Below, piece by piece: positions 2,095 through 30,357 of a DNA stretch of 64,000 nucleotides. The notes beneath the pieces are model-generated. The model was not told the origin of the DNA, did no database searches, and saw only the letters and a list, made by a program, of their open reading frames with translations. Source of the stretch: Arenicella xantha (lineage in GTDB: Bacteria > Pseudomonadota > Gammaproteobacteria > Arenicellales > Arenicellaceae); the NCBI RefSeq assembly GCF_003315245.1, contig NZ_QNRT01000009.1, positions 1 through 64,000 on the forward strand, read 5' to 3'. A program made the translations under genes and the position numbers. Numbering within the stretch: the first letter of the stretch is position 1; every line of letters starts with the position of its first letter.

Positions 2095-3435
2095 CTAATT
2101 CCGTTGCCGGTAGTCTCGCATAGCTTTGCGTAATTGACGTTCAGAATAGCGATCTTCATCAGACAACAATTGAAATGCGTAGTCGACCAGAGATGCGAGC
2201 TTCGGTTGATCGTCTAACTGACGTTGCAGACTGTCTAGACACATCAAGGCATGTTCCGCGGCAACGTAGTCTTGCAACTCACCACTGGCTCCTAGCTCTA
2301 TCAATTGGTTCGCCATATTGAGTAAGTCCGTCTGCTGAAAATCTTGGCTCTCCGCCAGCAACTGAATTTGGACCGCTTCTTGCTTTAACCTCGCTCCAGC
2401 CACTCGCACCTCCTGTAGCGAGGACTTGGAAGCCATATGCAGACTAGCGACGGCTTGTCGCAGTGAACGTTCTTGTGCACGATCAACCGCTCCTACCAGC
2501 GCCGCTAACACCAAAAACACTCCGTCGTTAACGCGTACCGAGCCAGGCTCAAGTTCCGCTGTACTTGGCCTTGGGCGCCAACGCAAATCATTTAATGAGT
2601 GATGACAGGCGTGACAGTCAAACAAACCGAGCTCAGGATACCCTTGTGGATGATTCAACAAGCCACCCGATAAATTGTCTGCTAATGCTTGAGCCGATAT
2701 CGCCGTGCCGACCATCATTCTACGTGCGGCTGTGTCGGTTATTTTTCGGGCTAAATAATCTTCGTCAACGTCATGGTGTGGTGGTTGCCGCTGTGTAAAT
2801 GTATCCAGCTCAAATCCAAGACGCGGATGACCCGCCCCCATGATTTGATGCGTAGCGAATTTTTTTTCAGTACCGACGTGGCAACTAACGCAAAGCCTAG
2901 TGCGACTGCCCAATTCGGCCGTTGGATACATGCCGTCCGCCAGGTTACGACTCAAGTCATAAGGCATCACGGTATGCTGAGCCAGCCAATTTTCGGCACC
3001 ACCATGACACGCCTCACAGCCAACCCCATCGCTAATATGAAACTCAGCACCTCGTAACTCAAGCGGCACATTGTCGGCATGACAATCTAAACATATGCTC
3101 GCTGTGGCGGGGTCTCCAATGCCCAGCTTAGCGGCTATCTGCTTGGACTCGGCATTGCGCAGCGTATTAAACGCTTTGGCATGTTGGTCGTGAAATAACC
3201 ATGTGAGGTACTCTGATTGCAATACATTACTGTCATCGGCGGGTACCTTGCTGGCGTGACAACTGGAATTTGCACACGTGGCTACCCCCATATGGGTTTG
3301 CTGATCGTATTGCGGCAACTCGGCGGCAAATACACGACTAAACCCAAGTAATAAAAAGCCCACACTCGCGCATACAAGCGCAAAATGCTTGCCGAGAGAC
3401 CGAGAATCCAAATTAATGTGTTTGCCAGCCGCCAT
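2095..3435 (-). CDS. Exported pentahaem c-type cytochrome (c554-like)
   Basis: A 446-residue exported cytochrome. It begins with a signal peptide (hydrophobic stretch about residues 19-38, cleavage near VFAA). It carries four CXXCH haem sites (CLDCH, CEACH, CVSCH, CHACH) and one unusual CX4CH site near the N terminus (C54 to C59, H60). The arrangement resembles the cytochrome c554 family of electron carriers. The C-terminal third has no haem motifs and is predicted helical. It is the last gene of the minus-strand electron-transfer operon, 5 bases after the LVIVD cytochrome. A clear paralogue is at 15926-17263 on the other strand, sharing the CX4CH site and the segments DGVGCEACHGGAEN and THQIMGAGHPRL. 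It is likely a periplasmic electron carrier; the partner is inferred. Confidence 0.85.
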   Translation of the reverse strand: MAAGKHINLDSRSLGKHFALVCASVGFLLLGFSRVFAAELPQYDQQTHMGVATCANSSCHASKVPADDSNVLQSEYLTWLFHDQHAKAFNTLRNAESKQIAAKLGIGDPATASICLDCHADNVPLELRGAEFHISDGVGCEACHGGAENWLAQHTVMPYDLSRNLADGMYPTAELGSRTRLCVSCHVGTEKKFATHQIMGAGHPRLGFELDTFTQRQPPHHDVDEDYLARKITDTAARRMMVGTAISAQALADNLSGGLLNHPQGYPELGLFDCHACHHSLNDLRWRPRPSTAELEPGSVRVNDGVFLVLAALVGAVDRAQERSLRQAVASLHMASKSSLQEVRVAGARLKQEAVQIQLLAESQDFQQTDLLNMANQLIELGASGELQDYVAAEHALMCLDSLQRQLDDQPKLASLVDYAFQLLSDEDRYSERQLRKAMRDYRQRN

Positions 3436-3440: not shown

Positions 3441-6400
3441 TTAATCCGAACCACCTTGTTGAGCCGGCTTAGTAGCATTATTAACTCGCCACGGCCGACC
3501 GTCCTTATCAAGATACAACTTACGCATCTCTTTCAAGTTCAGCGGCCTCGAACCAAGCCGCCCGAATACCGCGATCTGCCCACCGGTCTCATCCACCGCA
3601 CGGTCGCGATCCATACCCTTAGACAATGCTATAGCTGGGGACTTAGTTTTATGCCAAGCGATCAATTCAGGCTTAGGTGATGGGCTAAACCCGTAGAACT
3701 TAGGTTGCGCATCGGGCGACGTAAGCTGCACAACTTTGAGACCGTTAACACCATCCGCAACATAGGCAAACAAACTCGCATTCGTGCTGCCGACGACCAC
3801 ATCGCGCGCATCGCTTATCTGACCTTGCGCATCGTACTGCTGATACAGAGCCATTTTTTCAGGGTTCTTAACATCCACAATCATTAAGCCCTCTTCACCT
3901 GCTGCCACATAAGCGTAAGTACGTGCCACGTAGATACGCTGCGCGTTCTTCATTGGAATAGTGTTTTGCTCAAGCAACCTAGGTGTTTCGCCTTGTGTAA
4001 CATCCACCACTTTCAGTCCATCAGCGTCGGTCACAAATAGGTAACGAAATTGTAAGGCCGACGCGCGACCGTCGTTAAGCTCGATCACGGTTTCAATGAT
4101 CGGCTCAAGTGGTGAATCTAAGTTGATGATCACCATTCCAGCATCCGCTATTACGTACGCATAATAGCCACCTAATACCACATGCCGGGCGCCATCTAGA
4201 ATGCCATCAGGGTTCCAGGTTAAGTTCGCCTTTAGAAAGTTATTACGAAACTCACCATCTACCAAAGTATTAACATCGACTAGCATCAAACCTTTGACCG
4301 AGTCAGTCACCACCGCGTAATTATATATTGGGTGGAATGGCTGCTCTTGGTTGTCGACACGCATCAACTCACCCTGATTACGCTCCGGCGCAATGTTTTG
4401 GTTAGTTGGCAGCGCCATGCAAGTCACGTTATCGCTTTCTACTTGGGTATCGTGTCCGAGCTTGCTGAACGGTGCAGTTACAAATCTTAAGCTGTATCCT
4501 TTGTTCGAGACATTGGCCGCGTCGTAGACTCTAAAACCATTACTTCCTTCAGCAACAAACAAATATTCGCCCCGCAACTGTAAACACGAAGCCTGCGCAG
4601 AACTCCGCTCATATGCTATTTGTAGTTCCTGCTGATTGTCTTGATGTTGGGCAAACCAATCTGGGTAGGCATACTTTTGCAAGTAGCTACCAATAACGGC
4701 TTGAGGCTCTTCCCACTCGGTTACTTGCACTGCCGAAACGCTCTCTTGCCCACCAACCCATGCATGGTATCCAACGAAGTTAACAAAATTGGTACCCTGC
4801 AATAATAGCTGCGCCATAATCGCATTATTATCGTTCTGTTCCGACAAATGACAATCGTCGCAGGTTTTCGTTTCAGTCAATCGAGCCGTATGAGGAAAGT
4901 GCGGCGCAAACGCTTGAGAACTGAATCCGCTCGATGAAATCGGTGGTTGCTGAGTGTAAATTTTTTCGCGATTAGCGTTAGTCGACGACAAAACCAATGC
5001 CGACGAAGATCGCACCGGCGCGATACGTCCGCCGTTGATACCACCACGTCGACCTAGTTGGAACATCTGATCGCGCGCAACTTGCGGATTATACGTCGCA
5101 TAATTCCGCGACTCTCCGCCCTCGTAATGGTTTCGCTCAGTCTTCCAGTTCGCCTCAATCGGCAAATGACAGCCCGCACACGATGTGGTCCACGACGTAT
5201 GACAGGTATAACACTCCATTTGGTCGTCTTGATGCGCTCGATTTTCAGCGCTAACCCCAAGTCCCCAGTCTTGCTTGGCGGTATCATTACTAACGGTTTT
5301 AGCACGCGCCGCTTTGTCATTATATTGCGCATGCTTCGGGTCAACTGAATCCTTAACCAGCGACAGCTCCCACTCCAACCCAGGGGTCAATAATGAGCGC
5401 TGAATCAGCTTGCCATCGACCCATTCGAAGCGCAATTGGCCATCAGGGTTACGCAAGGCCGCCAAGCGATTTCCTTGTGGTGGAGCGGCTGGTCCAGTCG
5501 TGGTTAGATTCGGGTAAGCATCCGCCGTGCCATGACAATCCACGCAGTCGATTTCAACCGCATTCGCCACCTCACCATAGATATGCCCGTTGCCGTGTGA
5601 GTCTTGCGAAAAGTGACAATCCGAACAGTGCATCCCCTTGTCAGCATGAATCGACGACATGTGTACGCCCTTATCAAATTTCTCAGGGTCATCATCACTA
5701 ATTGCATTACCTTGGGCATCTAATAACGTGCCTTCACGGTCGCGTTTATACACCGCACGAAAGTTCCATCCGTGCCCGTGATAGTCGGCAAATTGGGTAT
5801 CACGAAGCTTCGGATTAAGTTCCGACACCTTGGCGACAAAATCAGGATCTGCCCACTTGCCCCGAGCCGCTGCGGCTTCAGGATTACGTTGGTTGGTTTG
5901 CCGGATTTCGGCATCCGTTGGATACTGCTGCTCTTCTGGCCACATATGTGGGGCATCCGACTCATAGTCCCACATGGTGTAGCCAAGATACGTATTGACG
6001 AACATATTAGGCTGGTGCATATGACAAATCATGCATTGCGAGGTCGGAATAGCGCGCGTGAATTCGTGCTTCAACGGGTGGCCCGATTCATCTTTGGGAA
6101 TAGTTGGGTCGGCGGTTTGTGTTTTACCTAAATGCCCGAATTCAGCATACGGGCCTGAGTGTTTTGGATCACGATCATTGGCATAGACCACGTGGCAACC
6201 ACTGCACCCTGATGAGCGATAATCGCCGGGATTATCGTTGGTGCCCAAAAACCACGACAGCGGATCGTTTAAGCGCGTCTTGGTGATATTAATCAGCGGC
6301 ACTGAGATTCGACCACCAGTACCAGGCCCACGATTAGACTGACGAATATCCGGTCGACCTGGCTCTTCAAGCCGCTGCAACAAGCCAAGAGCATTCGGTA

Positions 6401-7340
6401 TGCCGGTTTCCGGAAAGAGGTTTGATAGATTTCGTCCGCCGCGCTCAAAAACCCTAAAAATATCGCCGGGGCGCACGGTTTCCCATGCTGGCAGTGGCGC
6501 CAAACTCGGTAACACACCATGACGTTTTGCCAGCATTTCAGGCACGTTGGTGACGGGCCCAGCAATAGCGGCTGCTTCTCCCTCGCGGGTATACGCCTCG
6601 CCCAATATGTAATTCTTATAGGGCAATATTCCATTGTTATACGCCGCGCCGCCCCACAACATTGCGCCAGTTGACATCAAGCTACGCTTAGCCGCTTTAA
6701 TGATAGGTAAATGGCAGGCACCGCAAGCTTCCTCTGCAATTCGATAATCGCCGGGATTAACAAATCGTACAAACTCTGGGCTTTCCCTATTTAACAAGGT
6801 GTAAGCATGCGGCGGATTCGCGCTCGAAGGTGAATGCCAGGTTTTAGGCAATGTTGGCTGCACATGAGCCAACGTCATCGCGGCTAAGTAAGCTGGTGCA
6901 TAAGCATGGTCACTTGCGTGTTCATCCGCATGTCCGTCACTGTCAACAACTTGGCCAGTAGCGGGCTGAGGGTCTGCGCGAAAGTGTGCCGACAAACGCT
7001 CAACAGAATCGTGAGACTCGGGTTTTTCATGACTGTCTGCTACCGGCGCTTCAATACTTGAGTCGCCGCCGTGACAATCGGTGCATCCTAACACCACGGC
7101 GGGGTTACTGTGCATTGTGTGACGATCACTCGCGGTATGGCAACTGACACAGCCACTAGATTTAGTATCGGCTTCGGCTTGGGTTTGAGCCTTAGGTGCG
7201 GGCGGGTACACCGGGTATTCAATGACTAATGGTTCTTCGCCACTAGCGGCGTACAACGGCGCACTTACAACGCCGCACAGCGCAACGGCAGCCAGAGCCA
7301 GCAAGTTTCTAGAAATAATAGTAAGTCTAAGATTCATCAT
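3441..7340 (-). CDS. Decahaem cytochrome with C-terminal LVIVD beta-propeller
   Basis: A 1299-residue exported protein. A signal peptide covers about residues 1-32 (cleavage near LYAA). Ten CXXCH haem sites lie between about residues 64 and 830: CVSCH, CTDCH, CGACH, CSGCH, CMICH, CSDCH, CVDCH, CYTCH, CAGCH and CDDCH. Residues about 910-1230 hold repeated blocks such as YLFVAEGSNGFRVYD, YAYVIADAGMVIINLD, YLFVTDADGLKVVDV and YAYVAAGEEGLMIVDV. These are LVIVD repeats and should fold as a beta-propeller. The gene directly follows the outer-membrane barrel gene (3 bases between them). I infer it is the outer or surface cytochrome of a porin-cytochrome conduit, with the propeller as a docking module. 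A periplasmic location is the alternative. Confidence 0.85.
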   Translation of the reverse strand: MMNLRLTIISRNLLALAAVALCGVVSAPLYAASGEEPLVIEYPVYPPAPKAQTQAEADTKSSGCVSCHTASDRHTMHSNPAVVLGCTDCHGGDSSIEAPVADSHEKPESHDSVERLSAHFRADPQPATGQVVDSDGHADEHASDHAYAPAYLAAMTLAHVQPTLPKTWHSPSSANPPHAYTLLNRESPEFVRFVNPGDYRIAEEACGACHLPIIKAAKRSLMSTGAMLWGGAAYNNGILPYKNYILGEAYTREGEAAAIAGPVTNVPEMLAKRHGVLPSLAPLPAWETVRPGDIFRVFERGGRNLSNLFPETGIPNALGLLQRLEEPGRPDIRQSNRGPGTGGRISVPLINITKTRLNDPLSWFLGTNDNPGDYRSSGCSGCHVVYANDRDPKHSGPYAEFGHLGKTQTADPTIPKDESGHPLKHEFTRAIPTSQCMICHMHQPNMFVNTYLGYTMWDYESDAPHMWPEEQQYPTDAEIRQTNQRNPEAAAARGKWADPDFVAKVSELNPKLRDTQFADYHGHGWNFRAVYKRDREGTLLDAQGNAISDDDPEKFDKGVHMSSIHADKGMHCSDCHFSQDSHGNGHIYGEVANAVEIDCVDCHGTADAYPNLTTTGPAAPPQGNRLAALRNPDGQLRFEWVDGKLIQRSLLTPGLEWELSLVKDSVDPKHAQYNDKAARAKTVSNDTAKQDWGLGVSAENRAHQDDQMECYTCHTSWTTSCAGCHLPIEANWKTERNHYEGGESRNYATYNPQVARDQMFQLGRRGGINGGRIAPVRSSSALVLSSTNANREKIYTQQPPISSSGFSSQAFAPHFPHTARLTETKTCDDCHLSEQNDNNAIMAQLLLQGTNFVNFVGYHAWVGGQESVSAVQVTEWEEPQAVIGSYLQKYAYPDWFAQHQDNQQELQIAYERSSAQASCLQLRGEYLFVAEGSNGFRVYDAANVSNKGYSLRFVTAPFSKLGHDTQVESDNVTCMALPTNQNIAPERNQGELMRVDNQEQPFHPIYNYAVVTDSVKGLMLVDVNTLVDGEFRNNFLKANLTWNPDGILDGARHVVLGGYYAYVIADAGMVIINLDSPLEPIIETVIELNDGRASALQFRYLFVTDADGLKVVDVTQGETPRLLEQNTIPMKNAQRIYVARTYAYVAAGEEGLMIVDVKNPEKMALYQQYDAQGQISDARDVVVGSTNASLFAYVADGVNGLKVVQLTSPDAQPKFYGFSPSPKPELIAWHKTKSPAIALSKGMDRDRAVDETGGQIAVFGRLGSRPLNLKEMRKLYLDKDGRPWRVNNATKPAQQGGSD

Positions 7341-7343: not shown

Positions 7344-9212
7344 TTAGTAAGCCAACACCAAATTTGCCAGAACAGAATACGGTCGCGTCTGTCCATAAAG
7401 ATCTTTAAAACCGCTACCGGGATTCAATACCGCACCGGATAAACGAAACACGATATTTTGTGATGCAAAAGGCCGCCAGATCATCGCTGCCGAAAGGTCC
7501 TGCCCAATATTTTTACCCACCTTTGATTGGTTTCTTGCTAACTCAAGGCTCGAAGTATCATCAAACCACATCTGATTAAAATTCAAGGACAATCGAGTTT
7601 GCGGGGTCAAGTCAAAATCCGCCCCAACACCTAACACGGTAATACCGGGATTAGTAAAATTAGATTGACCATGCTCTTTAGACGAACGTAGCGACGGAAT
7701 AATCGAATTTCGACCATTTAGTGCAACGCGACCACCACCAATGAGCGGCACATTTTGACGAATAAAAAACGCCGTATCACCGCCAGCAAACTGTGGATTT
7801 TCAAAAATTGCGTCGAAGCCAGTTTCACGTTGATCGAGCGGATTATCGTCACCACTAGAATGCAAAAGTGACGCCTTAGCGCGTATCCAGTCATAATCTC
7901 TGGATACTTCTGCCGCCACGAAATAGGCGTTTACATCGGTATTTTGATTGGTAAACACGCCATTGCTTTGATCGCCCAATGCATAATAAGCTGAATAAGT
8001 TAGGTTGTTGCGTCCAAAATGCCCATCACCACTCACGCCCAAATAAGTGACATCATAATCACGACCACGTTCAAATCCGAGTGAGCTTGGCCGCGCAATA
8101 AACTGGTTGTCGTCGAAGAAAAAATCACTCGACTCGCGGTTTCGATTATGAATTATCGAGGCTTGTGAGATGAAGCCTTTAGATGGAAAGTCTTGCCAAT
8201 ATAGATTGGCAATGAAAATATCATCTTTGCGAAGGTCATCAGTAATGTCATTCAATCCACTGTTTGATTCTTTCTCTAAGCGGCGAAACCAGGCCAGATT
8301 GTATTGAAAAATATTGTTGTTCCGAGTACCAAACAATCTGACACCGAGCTGATTATCCTGGAATAAAAATCCTCGAAAGTCACTGCTAAATGGCTGAATC
8401 CCGATACGAAAGCTATCGAAATCGTAACGGTCTGATACATTGCGAATATGGTAGTCCCAAAATGCACCCTGTAAGCCCACATAGCCCTCGGTACGCGTGT
8501 CACCTTGCGCAGGATCAGCTTTGAGCGCGCCAATTTCGTCAGCCACAGTATGATTAATATTAATCGCGGTGATCACGCGAAACTCATGATCTGGCGGCCG
8601 GAAAACTGTATCGCCTTTATACAAAACCCCTTCAACAATCAGATTTTCGTTAACGAGGTAAGTATCACCAGCCGCAACTAAGTCTAAATCGCCTGAACCA
8701 GCAGTGGTCGCCGCGCCAACCGGTATCGGAAAACGACGCGGCTCTACCACCGTATCGCTTATCACCGACAGATTCACAAACCAGTCTTTGCCGAATACGG
8801 GTCGATCACCTTTGATCGGGTTATTATTGTTATACGGATCCCACAAATTCTCTTCGTAACCTAAGGCATCGACAATTCGCCACCGGTCTGGCACTGGTGC
8901 AAGATCAGGTAATAACATTGCACGCGGCGTCGGCAAACGGTTTGGATTGCAGGGATCAGCTTCGTACACCAGCACCGGGTAATTGGGGCGGCGACGCGGC
9001 TGCTCAACCTCAGCGTCCGCCTGTTCACACACCACTGCACCATCTACGTTAACCATCTCGTCAGCTTCAGTCGGTGTCGCAGCGTGACTAGCTGCAAACC
9101 ACAATCCACACAACAAGCCAACCATCGCGCGACCGACACCTAGGTTTGCACCTGGGTTTACGCCTGAGCCTGGCATGAGAGTCACCTTGCGGCTAGCTAG
9201 CTTGTCAGACAT
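7344..9212 (-). CDS. Outer-membrane beta-barrel protein (porin-like)
   Basis: A 622-residue protein with a signal peptide (hydrophobic core GLLCGLWFAASHAA). It has many alternating polar/aromatic strands ending in -Y or -F, and the C terminus is VLANLVLAY, as expected for a barrel. It has no haem or metal motif. The beta content and its position between cytochrome genes suggest the barrel of a porin-cytochrome electron conduit, analogous in role to MtrB but without recognisable sequence similarity. The ATG at 9212 overlaps the previous stop as TAATG and has GGGAA upstream; a longer start at 9227 is possible. The ligand or partner is inferred only from context. Confidence 0.75.
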   Translation of the reverse strand: MSDKLASRKVTLMPGSGVNPGANLGVGRAMVGLLCGLWFAASHAATPTEADEMVNVDGAVVCEQADAEVEQPRRRPNYPVLVYEADPCNPNRLPTPRAMLLPDLAPVPDRWRIVDALGYEENLWDPYNNNNPIKGDRPVFGKDWFVNLSVISDTVVEPRRFPIPVGAATTAGSGDLDLVAAGDTYLVNENLIVEGVLYKGDTVFRPPDHEFRVITAININHTVADEIGALKADPAQGDTRTEGYVGLQGAFWDYHIRNVSDRYDFDSFRIGIQPFSSDFRGFLFQDNQLGVRLFGTRNNNIFQYNLAWFRRLEKESNSGLNDITDDLRKDDIFIANLYWQDFPSKGFISQASIIHNRNRESSDFFFDDNQFIARPSSLGFERGRDYDVTYLGVSGDGHFGRNNLTYSAYYALGDQSNGVFTNQNTDVNAYFVAAEVSRDYDWIRAKASLLHSSGDDNPLDQRETGFDAIFENPQFAGGDTAFFIRQNVPLIGGGRVALNGRNSIIPSLRSSKEHGQSNFTNPGITVLGVGADFDLTPQTRLSLNFNQMWFDDTSSLELARNQSKVGKNIGQDLSAAMIWRPFASQNIVFRLSGAVLNPGSGFKDLYGQTRPYSVLANLVLAY

Positions 9213-10978
9213 TATTTTCCCGCGCACGGCGATGCCTCGATAGAATCGATAAACGGTGCTTGCGGACAGTTTATGTAGCGCAAGCGAACACCTTGCGGTG
9301 ACAAGGTGTCAGCGCGAATTGCTGGGTCGGCATTATTAATCGCCCCGCCTAATTCGACGCCAGCATTATGCAAGCCAAGAAATGAAATCATGTCATCCTG
9401 GTCAACTCCGTCACCGGAGACACCAATTCCACCAATCAATTGTCCGCCTCGATAAATTGGCACACTGCCGGGGAAAATCTGGATACCGTTGGCCAAATTC
9501 GGAATGCTAGTGCAGCCTGGTGCGGCTGAAATTAAGCGATCAATGCCAATCAAATTAAACTGTAAGCCAACATTAAACGGACTCCATACCTCAAAAGGAA
9601 AGCTCAACGGCCCGTTAGGGTTCCCGTCTATACCATCAGGGTAGAAGGGTCTAGATAGATTGCCACCGGCTCGATCCGAGAAAGCAATCCCGTCGGCGAG
9701 TGCGGTCGGTGAAACAAAGCTGCGTAGCGCATTTACAAAATGCTGTTGACCCGCGTCTATCAGCTTTTGACCGGCGTCGGCTCGTGAGAAAAACGCTGCC
9801 GTTCGAGCTTTTTGTAGGGAAACATCTGTGCCAAAAATCGGCGCATCAGGCGTACGAGCAATGCCTAAAATAATGCCATTACTGTCCACTACCGAAATAG
9901 AAACCCGCGCGCCGGAGTCTGCAGGGTTGCGAATTTGAGCGCGTGCCCGCATCGCCACACGCAATGCGTTACTGATTAACACTCGTACTTCATTCTCGGT
10001 AAGTGCAGCGGCGTCGGTTCCGGCTCTAATCGGAAATCGATCACCTAATACTACGGCAGGCACGCCGAACGCATCGCTCACGACAAATCCAGATTGTATC
10101 GAACCAAACGCAACCCCTGCTTTAACCGATCCGGTAAAAAAGCCAGCGACCGGCACAAACCTACCGCCAGCAAGCGAATCAACTGAGCTAGTACGTAGAT
10201 CTTTATGTTCTGCGTCACTGAAGCGAACTAGTTTTCCGTCTAATGTTATCTGGCTAAGGACTTCTGGGGCACCAAAACCTCTAGTTGCCGCCAGCGCTAC
10301 CAATTCATCAATAGATTGATCGATATCCGAAATAGAGTTATCAAGCGAGTACAAACCGTCGGCAATCACGCCAACACCGCCAATCACTTGTCCACCGCGG
10401 TACAACGGAAAACCACCGGGGTCAGCCGACAATCCAAGCGGCGAACCTTTTGGTCCTTGTGAGCCAACTTCAGAAGTCACTTCTGAGCATTGCAGCTGAC
10501 TAAATTGAACGCCGAATAAGGGGCCTGCCGGTTGGTTAAATTCGCCAGGATTAAAATGCTCTTGCACAATTTGACTGGCAACACGCGTACTAAAAGAATT
10601 ACCGCCGCTCGACAAATAGTTTCCAGTGATCGCTTTCGCGATGGCCGCAAAGCTCGCCGGTACCGGTTGCTGTTCAAGCCCATTGCCTTGTGCAATACCA
10701 CGATTCGATGTCACCGTAACATTCTCAGCAGCACCGTTCATTTGATATACCGCCAAGACATTACCCGGCCGATCAACCACGGCAATGGTGGCTGCTACAT
10801 TACGCGCTTTCGCTTCTGCCACGGCTTGCCCAACGACACGTCGAACCTCATCGGCACTCAAAATTGTTTGTGCATTCACGGCACCAAACAATCCCGCAAC
10901 AAACAATCCCGCACATGCGCAACGCAACGTCCGTTTCCACACCGTCGGTCTTGGTTTTATTTGAACGTTGTTTTTCAT
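9212..10978 (-). CDS. Exported protein with two HbpS/GlcG-family domains
   Basis: A 588-residue exported protein with a signal peptide (core CACAGLFVAGLFGAVNA, cleavage before QT). Two copies of the HbpS/GlcG (DUF336) fold follow. The first begins LSADEVRRVVGQAVAEAKAR and the second, about 300 residues on, begins LTENEVRVLISNALRVAMRAR. Each copy ends with the family block YRGGQ(V/L)IGG(V/I)GVSGDG or close to it. Some relatives bind haem or sense redox state extracellularly. In this locus it may handle haem or sense redox near the cytochromes. The ATG at 10978 is preceded by GAGAGAG; a start at 11011 would overlap the upstream stop as ATGATGA and give a longer leader. Confidence 0.82.
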   Translation of the reverse strand: MKNNVQIKPRPTVWKRTLRCACAGLFVAGLFGAVNAQTILSADEVRRVVGQAVAEAKARNVAATIAVVDRPGNVLAVYQMNGAAENVTVTSNRGIAQGNGLEQQPVPASFAAIAKAITGNYLSSGGNSFSTRVASQIVQEHFNPGEFNQPAGPLFGVQFSQLQCSEVTSEVGSQGPKGSPLGLSADPGGFPLYRGGQVIGGVGVIADGLYSLDNSISDIDQSIDELVALAATRGFGAPEVLSQITLDGKLVRFSDAEHKDLRTSSVDSLAGGRFVPVAGFFTGSVKAGVAFGSIQSGFVVSDAFGVPAVVLGDRFPIRAGTDAAALTENEVRVLISNALRVAMRARAQIRNPADSGARVSISVVDSNGIILGIARTPDAPIFGTDVSLQKARTAAFFSRADAGQKLIDAGQQHFVNALRSFVSPTALADGIAFSDRAGGNLSRPFYPDGIDGNPNGPLSFPFEVWSPFNVGLQFNLIGIDRLISAAPGCTSIPNLANGIQIFPGSVPIYRGGQLIGGIGVSGDGVDQDDMISFLGLHNAGVELGGAINNADPAIRADTLSPQGVRLRYINCPQAPFIDSIEASPCAGK

Positions 10979-11007
10979 ACCAAAATCTCTCTCGCTATCA
11001 AGATTCA

Positions 11008-12450
11008 TCATAGGTTAGTGGATGCTTTAGAAGGCTTGCTAGCACTATCACGAAGTGCTTGTTCAAGCGGCCGTTCGCCCGACCGCCAAGGCGCTAACGC
11101 AGGTCGATGAAACTCGTGACAAGCAATACAGCTCGTCGGAGTCTTACTCTCGTGCGAGCGCACACCGGTGTGACACGAATCGCAGACTGGCATATCCGGC
11201 ATCAGCACATCGGTCGCTTGTTCAGACTCGGCTGCCGCGTGACACAAGCTACAATCTGACGAACGGTGGCTACGGTGATTGAAGACTGATTTCGTCATCC
11301 ACTGTTCAGTTAATTTAACCTCGGCAACTTGCCAACTAAGTGCACCATCAGCATCACTTGTTTGACTGATTTCATGACAAGTTTTGCACGTGGTTCGAGT
11401 AAATACCTCTTCTGCTACACTCCGCGCTTTGCCCCACGGTTCTGCCATAGTAAGCGCTTGCGCTCCGCGTTGCTTAACTGAACCACCAGGCCGCCGCAAC
11501 ACGAAATCCTGTATCTCTTCTTGGGTCGGCGCGCGCCCAAGGCTGTTGCGTAAAAATTGTCGCGCATAAAACTCTTCCAGCGCTAATACTACCTGAGCAG
11601 GGTCGCCATGCGGAAGTTCACGCTCAGGCGCATCAGGATCAAACACCAAGGTATGACAGGCGCGACAATTGTTTTCCATGCTAATCGGCCGCATCAACTC
11701 CCCCGCGCCGTCGGTAACGTGACAATCATTACATACCAGTTGAGTATTCCCATCTGGGCCATCGACACCAGCCGCGTCAAGATGCACATCATGCGGAAAG
11801 CTTAAATTTGAATTCTCAACCGGGTTGTCGGCTAACTTTGCACGCTCAGCATGCCAAGTCATTGAGCCGGGTACGCCCTCTGCAGTAAGAATGCTAACTG
11901 ACAATGCTGGATGTGGCGCAGGCTTACCTTTCTCACGATGCTCAAGCCCAAAGCCGCCAACATCTTCCAGCGCAGTCTCTAAACCCGATTCACTTAAGTC
12001 TTCATGACAACCAATACACAACTGGTCATCGTGCCGAACTAAGTTAGCAGGCTTATTATGTTCACGATGACAACTCGCACAGCGCACCTCATCCAAATTC
12101 ACCACCGGATGCATTTCGCCATCTATATGCTGCTGAGCATCGGCATGACAAGTCAAGCAAGTATCATCTTGCACTTTTTGAAAAGGCACTGTGTGGCAGG
12201 CTTGACAATTTTGATTCAGTTCAGGAATCTTATGCGCCGAAGACAATGGTCCGGAAATCCATGCATTGTCAGACGGCAACGGCGAGCTGCGTAAGAACGA
12301 TGACAGCTGACCACTCATTAAGCTAACAATGGGTACCACTAAAAACAGCAACAGTATCCCTGCCAATAAGACCCAAGACGGCCAACGCCGACTCAGATTA
12401 GTTTCCTCTAGGGAGAGCGGGCTATTATTCTTTTTATTTCGATCTTCCAT
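11008..12450 (-). CDS. Membrane-anchored decahaem c-type cytochrome
   Basis: A 480-residue protein. One N-terminal transmembrane helix (about residues 26-47) is not followed by a signal-peptidase site, so the protein should stay anchored in the inner membrane with its haem domain in the periplasm. Ten CXXCH sites follow: CQACH, CLTCH, CASCH, CIGCH, CNDCH, CRACH, CKTCH, CSLCH, CDSCH and CIACH. Many scattered histidines can serve as distal ligands. The gene starts 19 bases after the b-type cytochrome gene. I infer that it takes electrons from, or gives them to, the b-type subunit and links to the periplasmic and outer-membrane cytochromes. Confidence 0.88.
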   Translation of the reverse strand: MEDRNKKNNSPLSLEETNLSRRWPSWVLLAGILLLFLVVPIVSLMSGQLSSFLRSSPLPSDNAWISGPLSSAHKIPELNQNCQACHTVPFQKVQDDTCLTCHADAQQHIDGEMHPVVNLDEVRCASCHREHNKPANLVRHDDQLCIGCHEDLSESGLETALEDVGGFGLEHREKGKPAPHPALSVSILTAEGVPGSMTWHAERAKLADNPVENSNLSFPHDVHLDAAGVDGPDGNTQLVCNDCHVTDGAGELMRPISMENNCRACHTLVFDPDAPERELPHGDPAQVVLALEEFYARQFLRNSLGRAPTQEEIQDFVLRRPGGSVKQRGAQALTMAEPWGKARSVAEEVFTRTTCKTCHEISQTSDADGALSWQVAEVKLTEQWMTKSVFNHRSHRSSDCSLCHAAAESEQATDVLMPDMPVCDSCHTGVRSHESKTPTSCIACHEFHRPALAPWRSGERPLEQALRDSASKPSKASTNL

Positions 12451-12469: not shown

Positions 12470-13351
12470 CTACCAGTAGAAGAACACAACGATAATGTGC
12501 ACCGTTAAAGCCGCTAACAATGAGATCGATAACGGCACGTGAAAATACAGCCAAATTTTTAACAACGCACGAATTTGCACATCGCGCCGAATACGACGCA
12601 ATATTGTTTGACGAGCCGCAACCGTAGCCAATAGATTTTGAACCGACCCAGCCTCCTCGCCTCCAGTTAATACCGACAGTCGATTGGCCAAACATTCGAT
12701 CGCATTCGCCTGATCAGTATTCGATACTTCTTGCTCGACACCCGAATTAAGCGCAGCGGGTATACGTACGGTTGAATTGTCTTTAGCCGCTAGTTGCTGC
12801 CAGACACTACCACCAATGTGCGTGCCTTCAATGGTGTTTGCTATGAGGGCGCGCAAGTCTGTTGTAGATGCTTCTTTGAGCGCCCGCTTATCCAGTTTTT
12901 CAACTTTTTTTAACAGGTTCGCCAATGTATCACCAGCACGATTTTCGCTCATGCGCGATGGGTATCGCACGTAGGCGTAAAGACCATAAAATCCACTCAA
13001 AATCACAGCCACCATTAACACATACGCTAAGGTGTGGATGTTGTAACCAAATTGCCAACCTGAATGAAGGCTCGCAATCAAAATCAATGCCGTGCCAAGA
13101 TAAACATGTGCTGACGTCCAGCCTTGCACCGATCCCAAACTAGATGCATAGCTACGCTTCCGTACCCCTAGTAGCGACAGCCAGACAATCAAGGCCGCTC
13201 CGATCGTGCCAAGCGTGTAGCCCAGCCAAGTTCCACCATTCGGTCCGTCGATCGGGTCATGCCAGAAATAGGCCGCTGAACAAAGCAAGCTTACGCACAA
13301 CGCAAACCAAAAATACCGGCCTCTACGAAATCCAATTATTGACTGATACAT
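12470..13351 (-). CDS. b-type cytochrome membrane subunit
   Basis: A 293-residue integral membrane protein with about five hydrophobic helices: residues about 14-32, 43-63, 83-98, 107-128 and 262-291. Histidines sit within or next to the helices (SAHVYLG, SLHSGWQF, YFHVPLS, LTVHIIVVFF), the pattern expected for a bis-His haem b protein of the cytochrome b561 / ferric reductase type. A soluble loop of about 120 residues separates helices 4 and 5. Lying 12 bases after the flavoprotein/ferredoxin gene and 19 before the membrane-anchored decahaem gene, it is well placed to carry electrons across the inner membrane. The quinone or nucleotide specificity cannot be read. Confidence 0.75.
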   Translation of the reverse strand: MYQSIIGFRRGRYFWFALCVSLLCSAAYFWHDPIDGPNGGTWLGYTLGTIGAALIVWLSLLGVRKRSYASSLGSVQGWTSAHVYLGTALILIASLHSGWQFGYNIHTLAYVLMVAVILSGFYGLYAYVRYPSRMSENRAGDTLANLLKKVEKLDKRALKEASTTDLRALIANTIEGTHIGGSVWQQLAAKDNSTVRIPAALNSGVEQEVSNTDQANAIECLANRLSVLTGGEEAGSVQNLLATVAARQTILRRIRRDVQIRALLKIWLYFHVPLSISLLAALTVHIIVVFFYW

Positions 13352-13363: not shown

Positions 13364-15760
13364 CTAGCGTTCAACGCGACTGCTAACCAAATCGACAAAT
13401 TGCTTGGGATTCAAACGCATCGCCGCTCCGGTAGGACAAGAGCTGACGCATGCCGGACCCGCAGCGCGATCTTTACAGGCATCACACTTAACGGCCTTTT
13501 TGATATCTTGCGATGGATCTTTCTGCTTGCCACCAGGACCAGGTCCTTTGCCAGTTAAAAGCCAATGCAACAAACCCGGCTTTTCGGCGGGTTCAGTTTC
13601 CAAGGAAATCACTTCGTATGGGCAGTTGCGCACACAGTTGCCGCATCCGATGCACGCTTCTTGGTCAATAAAGACCTCACCATCGGAAGCACGGTGAATG
13701 GCATCTGGAGGGCAGTCCTTCATACAATGCGGATGCTCACAATGGCGGCACGAAATTGGCACATGAATACTAGCGAACGACGCGCCGGCCTCCCGGTCTA
13801 AGCGAGAGTTTCCATCATGAGTTTCAGCACATGCTTTCTCGCAGTTGTCGCAACCGACACACAAAGACTCGTCAATAAGCAGCACATCGGTGCCCTCGCC
13901 CAAGCCTTCACGCATAAAGAACGACATTAACTCACCACCACGTGGTTCGGCCTCCATTTTAGCTTCAACCGTTAGCCGCTCGCGGACGTGCGCTTGCACC
14001 TGCTGACGCATGCCTGAATCTTTTTCTAACAGTGACAAAAAGCTGTTCTTACTTAAGCAAATTGTCTCAGTTCGCACATTGGCTCGTACGGTGTCGGTGC
14101 GAATCCCGTCGCCCAGCGCGCCCGCCTCACCAAAGTAGTGACCAACGGGCAAATACGAGGTAATGACTTCATGTTCCTCGGCTTGTTTTATTGAGGTAAC
14201 AGATCCAACCCGAATCAAATGCACTTCATCACCAGAGGTGCCTTGGGTATAGATATCTTCGCCCGCATCAAACATTTTCAGTCCACTGTCTTGCACCACA
14301 GTGGTCAGTTCGGAGTGTGGTGTGTTGGGGGTAAACTTTGAATGCAATGCTCTGAGGATAAACGCCTCATCCAGTACACGCTTCACTTCATCAACCGAAC
14401 TCAACAACTTAACCATGGTACGTCGAGGTGTTTCAACCACCACACAGCCTTCGCCAGCGTAAACCGTCGCGGTACGTCGTCGCCCGGATATCAAACTCTG
14501 TTCGCCAAAAAAGCCACCGCGATTGAAATGAAATTCTCCAACCCCGGGCAAACTCACAAATGCATTGCCATCAATCACCACGAAAAAGGTGTCGGTGAAT
14601 TCACCACTTACACAGAGTTCATCGCCCGGCGCTCGATACTGCACTTTACTGTCGAGAATGAATTCACGAAAAGTCAGAGGGTTAATGTCACGATAAATTG
14701 GTGATGATTGCTGCAGGTACACCAAGAGTTCCGCAACCGATTTGTCGTACGGAAGCCCCTTAAACGCTTCAACTAATAATGGATGATCAGCCGGCTCAAT
14801 ATCGTTGCCTAGTATGTATTCGACAACCTCATAGCCTTGGTTCATCGCTTGCTTGATCAGCGGATATCCGCCCAATGCGCCGATCACGTAGATCCCGTTC
14901 ACATTCGACTCATACTTAGCGCTTAGTTCAGGCAGCGATGCAGGATTGTCATTTGGGAACTCAATACCAAATGATTCCACCAATTTACGCGGAGGAATTG
15001 CACCTAAACGAGCAATCACGCGATCAACAGGAATGGCAACTTCACCGGTCGGGGTATTCAGAACAAACAAGTAACGACTCTCGTCGTCGGGGTTTAGCTC
15101 GATGCGACCAGGATTAGACTCATACTGACAGTCGATTTTTCCGTCGCTAATAGCGCCCATAATGGCGTCCAAGTTGCCTTGCTTGGCACGCGCAAATTCG
15201 TCTTTTCGGTTAATGATGGTCACGTGATTTCGATCAGCAAGACCAATGGCATTTTCAATTGCCGCATCACCAGCACCAACTACGGCAATACGCTCATCAT
15301 TGTATTCTGCCGGATCATCCAGCTGATATTGGACGTGTTCAAAATCGGCTCCTGGGCATGGCAGCTTGCGTGGATTACCCTGCACACCGATACCGAGAAT
15401 TATTGACTTAGCGCCAATTTTATCGCCAGACGTAGTGGTGATTACAAAGTTCCCCTGGCTGCCTTCTATGCCGGAGACTTCACTGTTATATCGTATATTG
15501 GTGTTGGTTGCCGAAAGCCCTTGATACCACTCATCTAAAATATTCTCACGCGTGTCAGCGGTGAATTTTAGCGGACTCCGTAATGGTAAGCGCGCAGGCG
15601 TATCCATTACGTGCTTGCCCTTCTGGTATTTTTGTATGGTGTTCGAATGCTTGGGCGATCCTTCGAGTAAAACGTGCGATACCCCTAGCTCAGCGGCATG
15701 TGCAGCAGCACTCATTCCACCTGGACCAGAACCCACTACTGCGATATCAAACAATTCCAC
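13364..15760 (-). CDS. Flavoprotein / double cNMP-binding / 4Fe-4S ferredoxin fusion
   Basis: A protein of about 798 residues joining three modules. Residues 1-335 are a thioredoxin-reductase-like FAD/NAD(P) unit, with VVGSGPGGMSAA for FAD, VVGAGDAAIENA for NAD(P), and a terminal YVIGALGGYPLIKQA. Residues about 365-615 hold two cyclic-nucleotide-binding folds, each with a phosphate-binding-cassette-like segment (FGEQSLISGRRRTATV and FGEAGALGDGIRTDTV). Residues about 630-785 carry four cysteine clusters of the FdhB/DmsB type (CVGCDNCEKAC, CRHCEHPHCMKDCP, CIGCGNCVRNCP, and a CDAC...CVSSCP set). No CXXC disulphide of a true thioredoxin reductase is visible. It probably moves electrons between NAD(P)H and the b-type subunit on the cytoplasmic side. 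The GTG at 15760 has AAGGGG upstream; a TTG at 15766 is the alternative. Confidence 0.85.
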   Translation of the reverse strand: MELFDIAVVGSGPGGMSAAAHAAELGVSHVLLEGSPKHSNTIQKYQKGKHVMDTPARLPLRSPLKFTADTRENILDEWYQGLSATNTNIRYNSEVSGIEGSQGNFVITTTSGDKIGAKSIILGIGVQGNPRKLPCPGADFEHVQYQLDDPAEYNDERIAVVGAGDAAIENAIGLADRNHVTIINRKDEFARAKQGNLDAIMGAISDGKIDCQYESNPGRIELNPDDESRYLFVLNTPTGEVAIPVDRVIARLGAIPPRKLVESFGIEFPNDNPASLPELSAKYESNVNGIYVIGALGGYPLIKQAMNQGYEVVEYILGNDIEPADHPLLVEAFKGLPYDKSVAELLVYLQQSSPIYRDINPLTFREFILDSKVQYRAPGDELCVSGEFTDTFFVVIDGNAFVSLPGVGEFHFNRGGFFGEQSLISGRRRTATVYAGEGCVVVETPRRTMVKLLSSVDEVKRVLDEAFILRALHSKFTPNTPHSELTTVVQDSGLKMFDAGEDIYTQGTSGDEVHLIRVGSVTSIKQAEEHEVITSYLPVGHYFGEAGALGDGIRTDTVRANVRTETICLSKNSFLSLLEKDSGMRQQVQAHVRERLTVEAKMEAEPRGGELMSFFMREGLGEGTDVLLIDESLCVGCDNCEKACAETHDGNSRLDREAGASFASIHVPISCRHCEHPHCMKDCPPDAIHRASDGEVFIDQEACIGCGNCVRNCPYEVISLETEPAEKPGLLHWLLTGKGPGPGGKQKDPSQDIKKAVKCDACKDRAAGPACVSSCPTGAAMRLNPKQFVDLVSSRVER

Positions 15761-15925
15761 CTGCAACCCCTTATTATTGTTATTCCTCCACCTTACATCA
15801 GTTTATAGTAAACCGATGCCTAATTGAAGAACCTGTTGCAATTAGCGATCCAACGCATTCATTCGCCATGAGCCCAAACTATCGGCTATGATAAGAAAGT
15901 CACATTAGCGGCTTATGGGTGCCCA
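15761..15925. promoter_or_regulatory. Divergent promoter region between the cytochrome operon and its paralogue
   Basis: This 165-base gap separates the start of the seven-gene minus-strand operon from the plus-strand pentahaem cytochrome, so both promoters must lie in it. A TATGAT at 15887-15892 could be the -10 of the plus-strand gene and a TATAAA-like element on the minus strand near 15806-15812 could be that of the operon. Neither has a good -35. A GGAGG lies on the minus strand but is too far from the likely start codon. Confidence 0.4.
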
Positions 15926-17263
15926 ATGCTTCAGCAACTTTCGATTCGTTCTCACGCTGTACTCGCTTGCTTAATCGCAAGCTGCGTACTGATTAGTTCA
16001 GACTCACTAGCGCAAATTAATAATGCGGAGAGCGAACACTCCACCGCTCACCTTGGAGTCGCGAGTTGCTCAGCCAGCACCTGTCACGGCAGTACCGTAC
16101 CGTATACCGAATCTAATGTACTGCAAAATGAATTCCGCACTTGGTATGAACTCGACCCGCATGCCCGAGCCTACCAAACCTTGTTGACCGACGAGTCGGC
16201 CAAGATCGCCCGCAAGCTCGGCCTCGAGTCCGCTAGCACAGCTGACACGTGCTTAACTTGCCACGCCGATAACGTCGCACCAGCGCAACGTGGCGCTGAC
16301 TTTCGTCTACAGGACGGCGTTGGCTGCGAAGCCTGTCATGGCGGCGCAGAAAACTACTTAAAATCTCACACCTTACAAGCGCACATAGATAATTTGAGTG
16401 CCGGCTTGAGAAAAACTGAAGACCCTCTAACCCGCGGCAAGCTATGCGTTAGCTGCCATGTTGGCGGTCAACAAACACGCCAAATCACACATCAAATCAT
16501 GGGCGCAGGACATCCTCGCCTCAGTTTTGAACTCAATACCTTCAGTAGCATTCAACCCGCCCATTACATGGTTGACGAAGACTATCGACAACGCAAAGGT
16601 GAGGTCAGCGCAATCTCGACTTGGGCGATGGGACAAGTGGTTGCAGCTGAACAGCTACTGCTAAACGTAGCAAACAAACCTCGCGCAGGACTGTTTCCAG
16701 AACTCTCGCATATGGACTGTCTAGGCTGCCATCAGTCAATGAGTAAGATCACATGGATGCCAGACTCAGTAACGCAATTACCAAGCGGCACGCTGCGCTA
16801 CCAAGATGCGCATTTATTAAGTAGCTACCGAATTGCATCCGTGGTGGCACCGGAAATGGCGCCAACTCTACTCAAATCTATTCGCAAATTTTTAACTGAA
16901 GCGGCCACTCAAGAGAATCCCAATACCTTAGTACAGCCACTCACTGAACAACTATCTGAGCTGCAGCTCAAACTCGCCGCATCGACAATTTCGGCTCAGC
17001 AGACTTACCAACTCATTGCAGCGCTAGTTGACTACGGCATCGAATCAGGGCACCACTCTTATGCTTCAGCCGAGCAGCTGGCTATGGGATTAAACTCATT
17101 GTTTAATGCGTTGTCTCAATCAAATTTTGACGCACAAACTAAGCAGCGTTTAATTCCCATAATTAATGAATTATTTACCTCGGCGGCGGATCCTGAACGT
17201 TACAACGCGGCCGCATTTATGCGCAATTTAAGACGTATTAAACCAGCAATGAGTGAACTCTAG
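15926..17263 (+). CDS. Exported pentahaem c-type cytochrome, paralogue
   Basis: A 445-residue exported cytochrome that is a clear paralogue of the gene product at 2095-3435. It has a signal peptide (core AVLACLIASCVLISSDSLAQ), a CX4CH site (C48 to C53, H54), then CLTCH, CEACH, CVSCH and CLGCH. Shared blocks include GVASC, NVLQNEFRTW, GVGCEACHGGAEN and HQIMGAGHPRLSFEL. The C-terminal 170 residues are helical and lack haems. It is transcribed away from the operon, so it may be expressed separately, giving two interchangeable periplasmic carriers for different conditions. This functional split is inference. Confidence 0.85.
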   Translation: MLQQLSIRSHAVLACLIASCVLISSDSLAQINNAESEHSTAHLGVASCSASTCHGSTVPYTESNVLQNEFRTWYELDPHARAYQTLLTDESAKIARKLGLESASTADTCLTCHADNVAPAQRGADFRLQDGVGCEACHGGAENYLKSHTLQAHIDNLSAGLRKTEDPLTRGKLCVSCHVGGQQTRQITHQIMGAGHPRLSFELNTFSSIQPAHYMVDEDYRQRKGEVSAISTWAMGQVVAAEQLLLNVANKPRAGLFPELSHMDCLGCHQSMSKITWMPDSVTQLPSGTLRYQDAHLLSSYRIASVVAPEMAPTLLKSIRKFLTEAATQENPNTLVQPLTEQLSELQLKLAASTISAQQTYQLIAALVDYGIESGHHSYASAEQLAMGLNSLFNALSQSNFDAQTKQRLIPIINELFTSAADPERYNAAAFMRNLRRIKPAMSEL

Positions 17264-17290: not shown

Positions 17291-18217
17291 CTAGTTGTCA
17301 GCCAACAGAGAAAGCGTCGCGGTTGCTTCGCCTGACGTTAGCACAACGCTATTAGCTTGGATTTCAGTGACTGTCCATGCTTGTATGAAATCACCGATTG
17401 TGACTCGGTAGCTTTGCCCAGTTCGGGTATCCGCAATAATCGCTGTTTGTGAGTTGCTGGACATCGATATTGCGCTAAGTCGATAGTGACCTGCGCTGGG
17501 ATTTTCCAACTGCTGTCTATAATCAGCATCAAATAGGCCCACTACCTGCGTTCTTGAACCAGGTCGAGATTTACTTTGTGAGTCAATTTCTTGCGGCGAA
17601 ACAATATCAAATACCACCGGCCTAACTCCAGCACTAACAGCCCGCGCACGCAACGACTCACTAATGTATGCCACGAACACCACCGCCGTGCCATCAAGCT
17701 CAAAACTTGGCGTATTGGCCGCACGTAAGTCATGCCGACGCAGTGACAACAACTCGAACTGAAGTTTTGGTCTTAATGTATCAAGCATTGGTAACAGACT
17801 ATCTAATTGTTCGCTTTTGATTCGAAAATTTATTTCGAGACGCGCCCTCGACACAGCATCATCGTGCTCGTCAATTGATGGCCTGAGGCTTGAAATACTG
17901 GCATCGTGATTCACAAATAGAGCCTTAACAGACTCTTGAAGATGGTGACCAACCAAACTACCTATTGCGCTAGAACTAAGGTCGCCGCGGGCAAATTTAT
18001 CGCGTAGCCCTGACTCCAATAGCTGGGACATCCCTGCGTTAGACTGCTGCTGATTACGTTGCTCGTCCAACGCCGCTCGCAACGAATTTGTGTGCTGTCT
18101 ATGCGACTCAAAGCTGCTTAATACCGGCCTGACAGCAACCGACCACAACAGCCATAACGCTGCGGCTAGTAACAGGTAGGCCAGCACCGACTGGCTCAAT
18201 TGACTACGACTAATCAT
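17291..18217 (-). CDS. gspM: Type II secretion GspM-like protein with GspC-like C-terminal domain
   Basis: A 308-residue inner-membrane protein. One N-terminal transmembrane helix (about residues 7-27) is followed by a coiled-coil stretch and a ferredoxin-like GspM domain to about residue 195. A linker leads to residues about 244-305, which read HYRLSAISMSSNSQTAIIAD, then SYRVTIGDFIQAW and VVLTSGEATATLSL. This matches the pattern of the GspC homology region, the periplasmic domain that contacts the GspD secretin. The ATG at 18217 has AGGAGGG upstream and overlaps the gspL stop by 8 bases. It is the last gene of the gsp operon. The fusion is read from pattern, not alignment. Confidence 0.68.
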   Translation of the reverse strand: MISRSQLSQSVLAYLLLAAALWLLWSVAVRPVLSSFESHRQHTNSLRAALDEQRNQQQSNAGMSQLLESGLRDKFARGDLSSSAIGSLVGHHLQESVKALFVNHDASISSLRPSIDEHDDAVSRARLEINFRIKSEQLDSLLPMLDTLRPKLQFELLSLRRHDLRAANTPSFELDGTAVVFVAYISESLRARAVSAGVRPVVFDIVSPQEIDSQSKSRPGSRTQVVGLFDADYRQQLENPSAGHYRLSAISMSSNSQTAIIADTRTGQSYRVTIGDFIQAWTVTEIQANSVVLTSGEATATLSLLADN

Positions 18218-19199
18218 CCGCGCCCTCCTGAGTAGTATCAGTCGCGGCAAATTTCAACTTCAGTCGAAAACGTTCGACATCTCGCGCTCCGTCGGCGGAA
18301 ATTGCCGATACAAACTCGCTGTCTATGACCAAATCATTGGTGTCGACTCGAGTTCTAACCAACGATGAACTTCGTGCCCGCATATCAAGCACCAAAGTAT
18401 GAGCGTTCAGTATTGCTTGATCGACGACGGCATCATTCGGCAAAGTGCGCGACAGCGACTCCAAATAGTTCACCGTTGTGGCAACGCTCGAGCCTTGGCC
18501 ACTAGTCATTATCACATCAGAATCAAACTCAAGCCCGCTATTACTCTGATTTAATGCACTAATTTTCTGCTGCAAACTGGTTTGCAATTTGCTTTCTTGA
18601 CTCCACCAGTAACCGCTCAAACCGAACAAAGCAATCAGCGTAACAGCGCCAAGTACTAGTCGGCGTTGGTATCGGTTGCGCGGCACAGCACGAGCTTGAC
18701 CCGCATCACCAGCAAAATCATGAAACTCCACAAAGCGCCGTTGTTGTGCTGCATCAAAGGCCAAACCGCTAATTGAAAGCAAGGCTTCCTTACACGCATC
18801 CAGCGGTTCTACGAGCTCTTGTCGTAACACTGCATCGACCCGAGCTCCAGCGTCCGCAGCAACATACCAAAGCTCCTCTGCTTTAAACGGCATGAGCTCC
18901 GCAACCACCGCATCAACAGACATTCCCCGTTTATTAAGTGGCACAGCGATTGAAATAACATTATCGGCGGGAACCAATAAGTAGACTTTTACACGACCCG
19001 ACGACCGCATTATACGCGTAACTTCGACCGGATCTAAGACTCGATTTTGATCTCGATCAGGCAAATAAAGTCTGTTATCTGAAGATGAATAGGCAACGAC
19101 AGCGGGTTGCTTCGCACGAAATGCAAATGGCATGCCAAGTCCCTGAGCCCACCATGAGAGGAACCGCCTGACGCTTTGCATTGTGTGTGTCTTATTCAT
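18210..19199 (-). CDS. gspL: Type II secretion GspL-like protein
   Basis: A 329-residue protein of the GspL/PilN class. Residues about 20-165 form the cytoplasmic part that docks on GspE, here shorter than in typical GspL (about 380-400 residues). A transmembrane helix follows at about residues 181-199 (LVLGAVTLIALFGLSGYWW), then a coiled coil (LQTSLQQKISALNQ) and a periplasmic ferredoxin-like domain. It lies between gspK and gspM, as expected for gsp operons. A 119-base gap separates it from gspK, large enough for an internal promoter. The start could also be the internal ATG at 19181. Confidence 0.75.
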   Translation of the reverse strand: MNKTHTMQSVRRFLSWWAQGLGMPFAFRAKQPAVVAYSSSDNRLYLPDRDQNRVLDPVEVTRIMRSSGRVKVYLLVPADNVISIAVPLNKRGMSVDAVVAELMPFKAEELWYVAADAGARVDAVLRQELVEPLDACKEALLSISGLAFDAAQQRRFVEFHDFAGDAGQARAVPRNRYQRRLVLGAVTLIALFGLSGYWWSQESKLQTSLQQKISALNQSNSGLEFDSDVIMTSGQGSSVATTVNYLESLSRTLPNDAVVDQAILNAHTLVLDMRARSSSLVRTRVDTNDLVIDSEFVSAISADGARDVERFRLKLKFAATDTTQEGADD

Positions 19200-19318
19200 A
19201 GCGTTGGTATTATGAACCAGTCAGCGCTCCATGTGCACTATCATGTGTCAGCTTAGCGTCTTATGGCGCCGCGAACAGTCTTCAAATGAGCCTTACTCTG
19301 TTGCAAACAATCGACGAC

Positions 19319-20640: not shown

Positions 20641-20704
20641 GAACGAACCAGGCAGACATCGTCCTTCGGTTTGCTGCCCAATAACTATTGAGAGTCGTCG
20701 TGAC

Positions 20705-27922: not shown

Positions 27923-28079
27923 AGCCCGCTCATTGAAATTCTTTATCGACTTATATCTTATCCGTTCGCCACTGACAACAGCATCTCACTCAAACACAGC
28001 ATTGAACGAACAAATTCACATCCACAAAGCTTGGTTTACGCGGTATATTGGGATCACAATAACAACAATAAATATCAAA

Positions 28080-30341: not shown

Positions 30342-30357
30342 GCTTATCACAATGACA

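Follow-up and report, generated by a model that had tools for sequence, protein, structure and literature searches.

The window, meaning the whole 64,000-nucleotide stretch of Arenicella xantha DNA that was analysed, contains a cassette of seven genes on the reverse strand between positions 2095 and 15766. In gene order, the products are an oxidoreductase with an NADP-reductase region, two cNMP domains and four [4Fe-4S] clusters, a cytochrome b, a decahaem c-type cytochrome, an HbpS-like protein, a beta-barrel, a decahaem-LVIVD protein and a pentahaem C554-type cytochrome; the decahaem-LVIVD gene is thus the sixth of the seven. The features, with the evidence for each, were as follows.

13364 to 15766, reverse strand: cytoplasmic oxidoreductase, 800 aa, with an FAD domain, two cNMP domains and 16 conserved Cys (Pfam, alignment, fold likeness)
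12470 to 13351, reverse strand: cytochrome b561/Ni-hydrogenase-type membrane protein, 293 aa (Pfam match below cut-off, conserved His)
11008 to 12450, reverse strand: decahaem c3/c7-type cytochrome (decaC3), 480 aa, with an N-terminal membrane anchor and ten CxxCH (Pfam, motif count, hydrophobicity)
9212 to 11011, reverse strand: exported protein with HbpS-like (GlcG-type) domains, 599 aa (Pfam, N-terminal segment)
7344 to 9227, reverse strand: predicted outer-membrane beta-barrel, AlgE-like, 627 aa (AlphaFold2 model; no match in a Pfam scan)
3441 to 7340, reverse strand: decahaem cytochrome with a C-terminal LVIVD beta-propeller, 1299 aa (ORF, Pfam, AlphaFold2, Foldseek)
7248 to 7340, reverse strand: putative cleavable signal peptide of the decahaem-LVIVD protein, residues 1-31, ...SAPLYA|ASG, no lipobox (single N-terminal hydrophobic stretch; cleavage site inferred)
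4848 to 7151, reverse strand: haem region of the same protein, residues 64-831, ten CxxCH (motif count, family alignment)
3612 to 4634, reverse strand: predicted LVIVD propeller of the same protein, residues ~903-1243, six blades counted (Pfam, AlphaFold2, strand list, Foldseek)
2095 to 3435, reverse strand: C554-type cytochrome, 446 aa, with four CxxCH and one CX4CH (Pfam, motif count)
15926 to 17263, forward strand: second C554-type cytochrome, divergently encoded and 37% identical to the product of 2095-3435; its membership of the system is uncertain

The decahaem-LVIVD gene is an open reading frame of 1299 codons with an ATG start and is uninterrupted by stops. Its ten CxxCH motifs start at residues 64, 86, 206, 379, 436, 572, 599, 710, 721 and 827 and, as the initial annotation had proposed, all fall within the first two thirds of the protein. 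Shuffling of the protein composition (n = 2000) produced a mean of 0.01 and a maximum of 1 CxxCH versus the ten observed, and full-length relatives with 63 to 84% identity had the same ten motifs; these results ruled out a frame artefact or a chance occurrence of the motifs. All ten motifs and 14 His residues outside CxxCH were invariant among 79 sequences of the family. Bis-His ligation is the usual state of electron-transfer haems, and the number of spare His residues would be enough to ligate all ten haems in this manner.

The last third of the protein had been described as consisting of LVIVD repeats with no haem sites, and this description held. The Pfam LVIVD family (PF08309) was matched with an E value of 1.7e-17 and 62.9 bits (curated cut-off, 20.2), and the only cysteines C-terminal of the last haem motif were C919 and C974, both of which were invariant. 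An AlphaFold2 run on residues 134 to 1299, using a 69-row alignment, gave a model with a pTM of 0.83 and pLDDT values of mostly about 85 to 97 across residues ~903 to 1243. In a Foldseek comparison with the PDB, the archaeal YVTN surface-layer propeller 1l0q ranked first and was followed almost exclusively by other propellers. The predicted strands grouped into six repeated blades, as counted from the strand list, in agreement with the expectation that residues 900 to 1260 would be predicted as a propeller. C919 and C974 sit on the first strands of the neighbouring blades 1 and 2 of the predicted fold and could possibly form a disulphide. The propeller repeat is common to this protein and to LVIVD surface proteins; the LVIVD relatives met in searches were, in contrast to it, mostly haem-free.

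A scan of a one-genome-per-species collection detected at least 594 decahaem-LVIVD loci in Alpha-, Beta- and Gammaproteobacteria, the host genera among the loci listed including Haliea, Parahaliea, Pseudoteredinibacter, Steroidobacter, Limnobacter, Duganella and Oceanibacterium. The LVIVD fusion was common to the 80 best of these at least 594 relatives, and 78 of the 80 called ORFs contained ten CxxCH motifs. Mis-joining of a cytochrome gene and an LVIVD gene was ruled out by the presence of the same fusion in these 80 relatives, and the sequences indicated that the fusion is ancestral. Among sampled whole genomes of the class, a full-length decahaem-LVIVD protein was present in 10 of 274, with a partial copy in one more, and the phylum sample contained it in 11 of 398 genomes, giving a cassette frequency of ~3 to 4% of sampled species for either the class or the phylum. 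Both the barrel and the full-length cytochrome were absent from two sampled species of Arenicella, indicating a patchy distribution. The outer-membrane part of the cassette was also found on conjugative megaplasmids, with copies in plasmids of Sphingobium herbicidovorans and Sphingopyxis indica.

Gene order was counted in 52 relative loci with enough upstream sequence. The genes for the FAD protein, cytochrome b, decaC3, HbpS-like protein, barrel and decahaem-LVIVD protein occurred in this order on one strand in 39 loci, and a C554 gene was located downstream on the same strand in 26 of these, inverted in 2 and upstream in 1, with no C554 match in the remaining 10. In 9 of the other 13 loci, the FAD gene was shifted downstream of the C554 gene; 2 differed only in having no HbpS match, one was without the FAD gene and one was rearranged. 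The barrel family was searched independently in the same 274 class genomes as the cytochrome, and both were present in 10 of the 12 genomes having either. In one exception (G038) the cytochrome was partial and lay at the end of a contig, and in the other (G214) a barrel was present but no full-length cytochrome was found. One of the genomes with both (G112) had two copies of each.

These results bear on the initial annotation, which had treated the protein by itself and suggested an extracellular carrier with a docking or mineral-binding domain. The fusion of a decahaem cytochrome to a propeller was confirmed, but the protein does not stand alone, being a member of a conserved seven-gene cassette, and this membership outweighs the fusion itself in importance. 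The genome-by-genome co-occurrence of the barrel and the synteny of the remaining cassette genes argue against a lone surface cytochrome, as do a search of the protein sequence in which no surface anchor was found and the absence from that sequence of anything that points to mineral binding. Overall, we consider a lone mineral-binding cytochrome to be highly improbable.

The FAD domain of the 800-aa oxidoreductase resembles thioredoxin reductase and ferredoxin-NADP reductase, and a conserved loop, N-R-x-x-E-F-x-R-x-K, of the sort that binds NADPH suggests, by analogy with known TrxR-like enzymes, the use of NADPH. The 16 conserved Cys residues in the alignment correspond to four [4Fe-4S] clusters, and both cNMP domains keep G-E...R, with Q replacing E in some of the second-domain copies. 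Five His residues (82, 96, 106, 271 and 285) are conserved in the cytochrome b. The decaC3 protein has ten conserved His residues beyond those of its ten CxxCH motifs, and the spare His residues of the two decahaem proteins, combined with the invariant haem motifs of the decahaem-LVIVD protein, fit bis-His electron wires. The CX4CH motif, the fifth haem motif of the C554-type cytochrome, was kept in 58 of 58 relatives. The AlphaFold2 model of the barrel has 18 strands, with AlgE as the closest fold and OprD-type channels next, and 65 of the 67 family members end in Y or F; the C-terminus and the model suggested an outer-membrane placement.

Taken as a whole, the locus is best read as encoding one trans-envelope, cyclic-nucleotide-gated and NADPH-linked electron path with the decahaem-LVIVD protein as its terminal cytochrome, a reading to which we assign a probability of about 0.58. 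The FAD/[4Fe-4S] protein would accept electrons from NADPH in the cytoplasm, subject to gating by cyclic nucleotides, and these would pass from FAD via the four [4Fe-4S] clusters to the membrane cytochrome b and then to the membrane-anchored decaC3 wire on the periplasmic side. From decaC3, electrons would reach an outer-membrane module composed of the AlgE-like barrel, the pentahaem C554-type cytochrome and the decahaem-LVIVD protein, whose haem arm would pass them to an acceptor. Docking and ligand binding are general roles of propeller folds, and the LVIVD domain could act as such a module, keeping the terminal cytochrome in place at the barrel, at a partner or at the substrate. We infer the NADPH donor, the outward direction, the wiring order and the outer-membrane position; counting against the pathway are a Pfam match of the cytochrome b that falls below the cut-off, an electron direction that the sequence does not fix and the nature of several hosts, which are ordinary aerobic heterotrophs not known for metal respiration.

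An extracellular electron carrier, as suggested in the initial annotation, is a plausible role for the decahaem-LVIVD protein. A surface location is putative, however, given a signal peptide of the ordinary type, the lack of a lipobox and an AlgE-like partner barrel, and the cytochrome may reside on the periplasmic rather than the outer side of the outer membrane. Compared with MtrB, a barrel of 18 strands like that of AlgE is narrow, and hence the model makes threading of a decahaem cytochrome through the lumen unlikely; the lumen could instead house a pentahaem segment, or a cytochrome could dock on the periplasmic face. A serious alternative, by analogy with the work on Geobacter ExtI (PMC5877670), is a scheme in which the barrel admits a soluble substrate, such as an oxyanion, a small metal complex or a quinone, that is reduced by a periplasmic decahaem-LVIVD protein. 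The inner-membrane supply chain would be the same but no electrons would cross the outer membrane. The nearest relative of the barrel, AlgE, is a solute exporter, and the best family match of the haem region (around residues 562 to 612) is ExtM, whose cluster includes the porin ExtI. A role in reducing selenite and tellurite has been attributed to this porin (PMC5877670). The missing lipobox and a density of ~130 aa per haem, far from that of a compact wire, are further points in favour. Conversely, the ExtM match is local, scoring 67.6 bits where the ExtM equivalog NF040943 has a cut-off of 800 and so denoting a related haem segment rather than membership, while the 14 invariant spare His residues are present and an open catalytic haem is not evident in the sequence. 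Periplasmic reduction of a soluble substrate is viewed as possible but rather unlikely.

An electron path of this composition could also operate inward, with electrons from an extracellular donor (Fe(II), Mn(II), reduced humics or a cathode) being delivered to the inner membrane or NADP. One relative locus (L039) came from a record named Biocath_Gamma, and porin-cytochrome systems can run both ways, MtrAB being stated to work in both directions (PMC10734462). Reduction of NADP by high-potential donors is, however, uphill, and no proton-coupled subunit was recognised in the cassette. Moreover, the hosts include Duganella, Steroidobacter and Sphingobium, none of which is known as a lithotroph. 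Inward flow is accordingly regarded as distinctly unlikely.

The surroundings of the cassette provided some indications of its control. Genes for a PP2C phosphatase and for FHA proteins were each found downstream of the cassette in 16 of the 42 loci extending far enough, and relatives of class III cyclases neighboured the cassette in a few loci; in the window they are encoded at 27903-30341. In combination with the cNMP domains, these neighbours suggest control by second messengers and phosphorylation. No RNA elements were found near the cassette, and promoter and terminator scans gave results at chance level only. T2SS and two-partner secretion genes neighbour the cassette in the window, but as this linkage was present in only a few other loci, they were left out of the system.

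The papers searched contained no description of an LVIVD-multihaem fusion or of the cassette, and the seven genes apparently form a widespread, syntenic and undescribed electron-transfer set. With considerable doubt, we advance the proposal that aerobic Proteobacteria use a widespread pathway, switched by cyclic nucleotides, to send electrons from NADPH as far as the outer membrane or past it. If true, the pathway would be the functional counterpart in bacteria of the eukaryotic NADPH oxidase or ferric reductase, with electrons crossing two membranes. The extracellular reductant that it would make, for example Fe(II), hydroquinones or superoxide, could help the cell to gain iron, to balance its redox state or to attack aromatic polymers. 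Known trans-envelope electron systems come mainly from metal-respiring or lithotrophic bacteria, and outward flow from NADPH would imply that many bacteria unsuspected of extracellular redox chemistry own a dedicated and regulated machinery. The hosts include the cultured genera Parahaliea, Duganella, Steroidobacter, Limnobacter and Sphingobium, and hence function is directly testable by gene deletion.

Comparison with known systems was used to place the cassette. The Geobacter extHIJKLMNOPQS cluster resembles it in encoding a porin-like barrel (ExtI), multihaem cytochromes (ExtM/N), a cytochrome b (ExtP) and an Fe-S protein (ExtO). The Fe-S supply in Ext is of the Rieske type (ExtO), whereas the cassette has an FNR/cNMP/4x[4Fe-4S] protein, and an HbpS-like protein is found instead of the rhodanese of Ext; ExtM itself carries 12 haems in ~600 aa, compared to ten in 1299 aa. 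ExtM-like cytochromes of ~800 aa with 11 to 12 haems were also detected in Gammaproteobacteria (L017-L027 and L032), having homologous haem segments (~27 to 36% identity) that aligned with residues 369-461, 566-740 and about 702-834 of the decahaem-LVIVD protein. These cytochromes are without LVIVD, and their neighbours in the examined loci were short haem-free proteins rather than the cassette. Identity of the 11-haem relatives with UetJ is not claimed, as triheme, NHL and PPIase genes were not seen nearby upon inspection by eye.

The MtrCAB, MtoAB and PioAB systems share with the cassette an outer-membrane barrel gene beside decahaem cytochrome genes. An MtrB-type barrel was ruled out, since an MtrB_PioB (PF11854) profile search of the A. 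xantha genome gave no match and the model is of an 18-strand AlgE-like barrel. The decaC3 protein scored 28.4 bits against the MtrA/DmsE family TIGR03508 (cut-off, 192.2), and no DmsE/MtrA-type member above the cut-off was present in the cassette. PCC3, like the cassette, combines a barrel, two multihaem cytochromes and a ~300-aa inner-membrane protein in Alpha-, Beta- and Gammaproteobacteria (PMC5566968). The PCC3 cytochromes have one haem per 22 to 39 aa, with medians of 34 and 21 haems (He et al. 2017, PMC5566968); the far lower haem density and the predicted folded propeller of the decahaem-LVIVD protein indicated that the cassette is not PCC3. The undecahaem electron transfer (Uet) system of Tenderia also has a multihaem cytochrome, a barrel and NHL-repeat proteins, and comprises the undecahaem UetJ and triheme cytochromes together with a prolyl isomerase and NHL proteins encoded separately (PMC10734462). 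When the cassette was scanned with Pfam and NCBIfam profiles, no undecahaem UetJ, triheme cytochromes, PPIase or separate NHL proteins were detected, and LVIVD is fused to the decahaem cytochrome whereas the NHL proteins of Uet are separate. The comparisons run thus set the cassette apart from each of MtrCAB, PCC3, Ext and Uet. With its barrel and cytochromes encoded together and co-occurring, it fits the general class of porin plus multihaem cytochrome systems, and a conduit with surface exposure and exchange with an external acceptor is a plausible candidate function in extracellular electron transfer.

Other gene groups in the window, and genes adjoining the seven-gene electron-transfer cassette at matched loci, are listed below.

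Window 17291-26584: immediately adjoining the cassette, a small operon of T2SS-like genes (GspM-b, pseudopilins, GspF, GspE, secretin)
Window 27903-36485: consecutive genes for a CHASE2-adenylate/guanylate cyclase, a TPS-domain exoprotein (1080 aa), a FecR protein and a ShlB-type transporter
Window 37396-62873: aromatic-degradation region
L116:4971-6443: glutamate dehydrogenase beside the cassette, annotated as NADP-specific
L072:17433-18791, L081:17069-18424 and L036:15129-16574: glutamate dehydrogenase beside the cassette at each

T2SS genes also neighbored the cassette at two matched loci (L074 and L087), parts of the cyclase/exoprotein/FecR/ShlB set lay nearby at two others (L055 and L061), and ShlB was detected near the cassette in Sphingobium. 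Adjoining glutamate dehydrogenase genes were recurrent, being present at about seven loci. The LigB dioxygenase, GFO/IDH dehydrogenase, amidohydrolase, PrpF and RraA-type aldolase genes of the aromatic-degradation region form a protocatechuate 4,5-cleavage pattern. The region further encodes two VanA-type Rieske oxygenases, a GST and an FAA hydrolase.

Outside the window but in the same genome, further LVIVD-repeat matches (L001, L003 and L004; G000:C6, about 37682-44563) fell in a 12,962-residue open frame, which probably encodes a giant surface protein. In a congeneric species (G256), a frame of 12,792 residues gave a weak match.

In another gammaproteobacterium (L119:2975-10881), inspection by eye detected one CHASE2-like and one cNMP-like protein adjoining an 11-haem ExtM-like cytochrome, a hint that multihaem cytochromes other than those of the seven-gene cassette are also under cyclic-nucleotide control.
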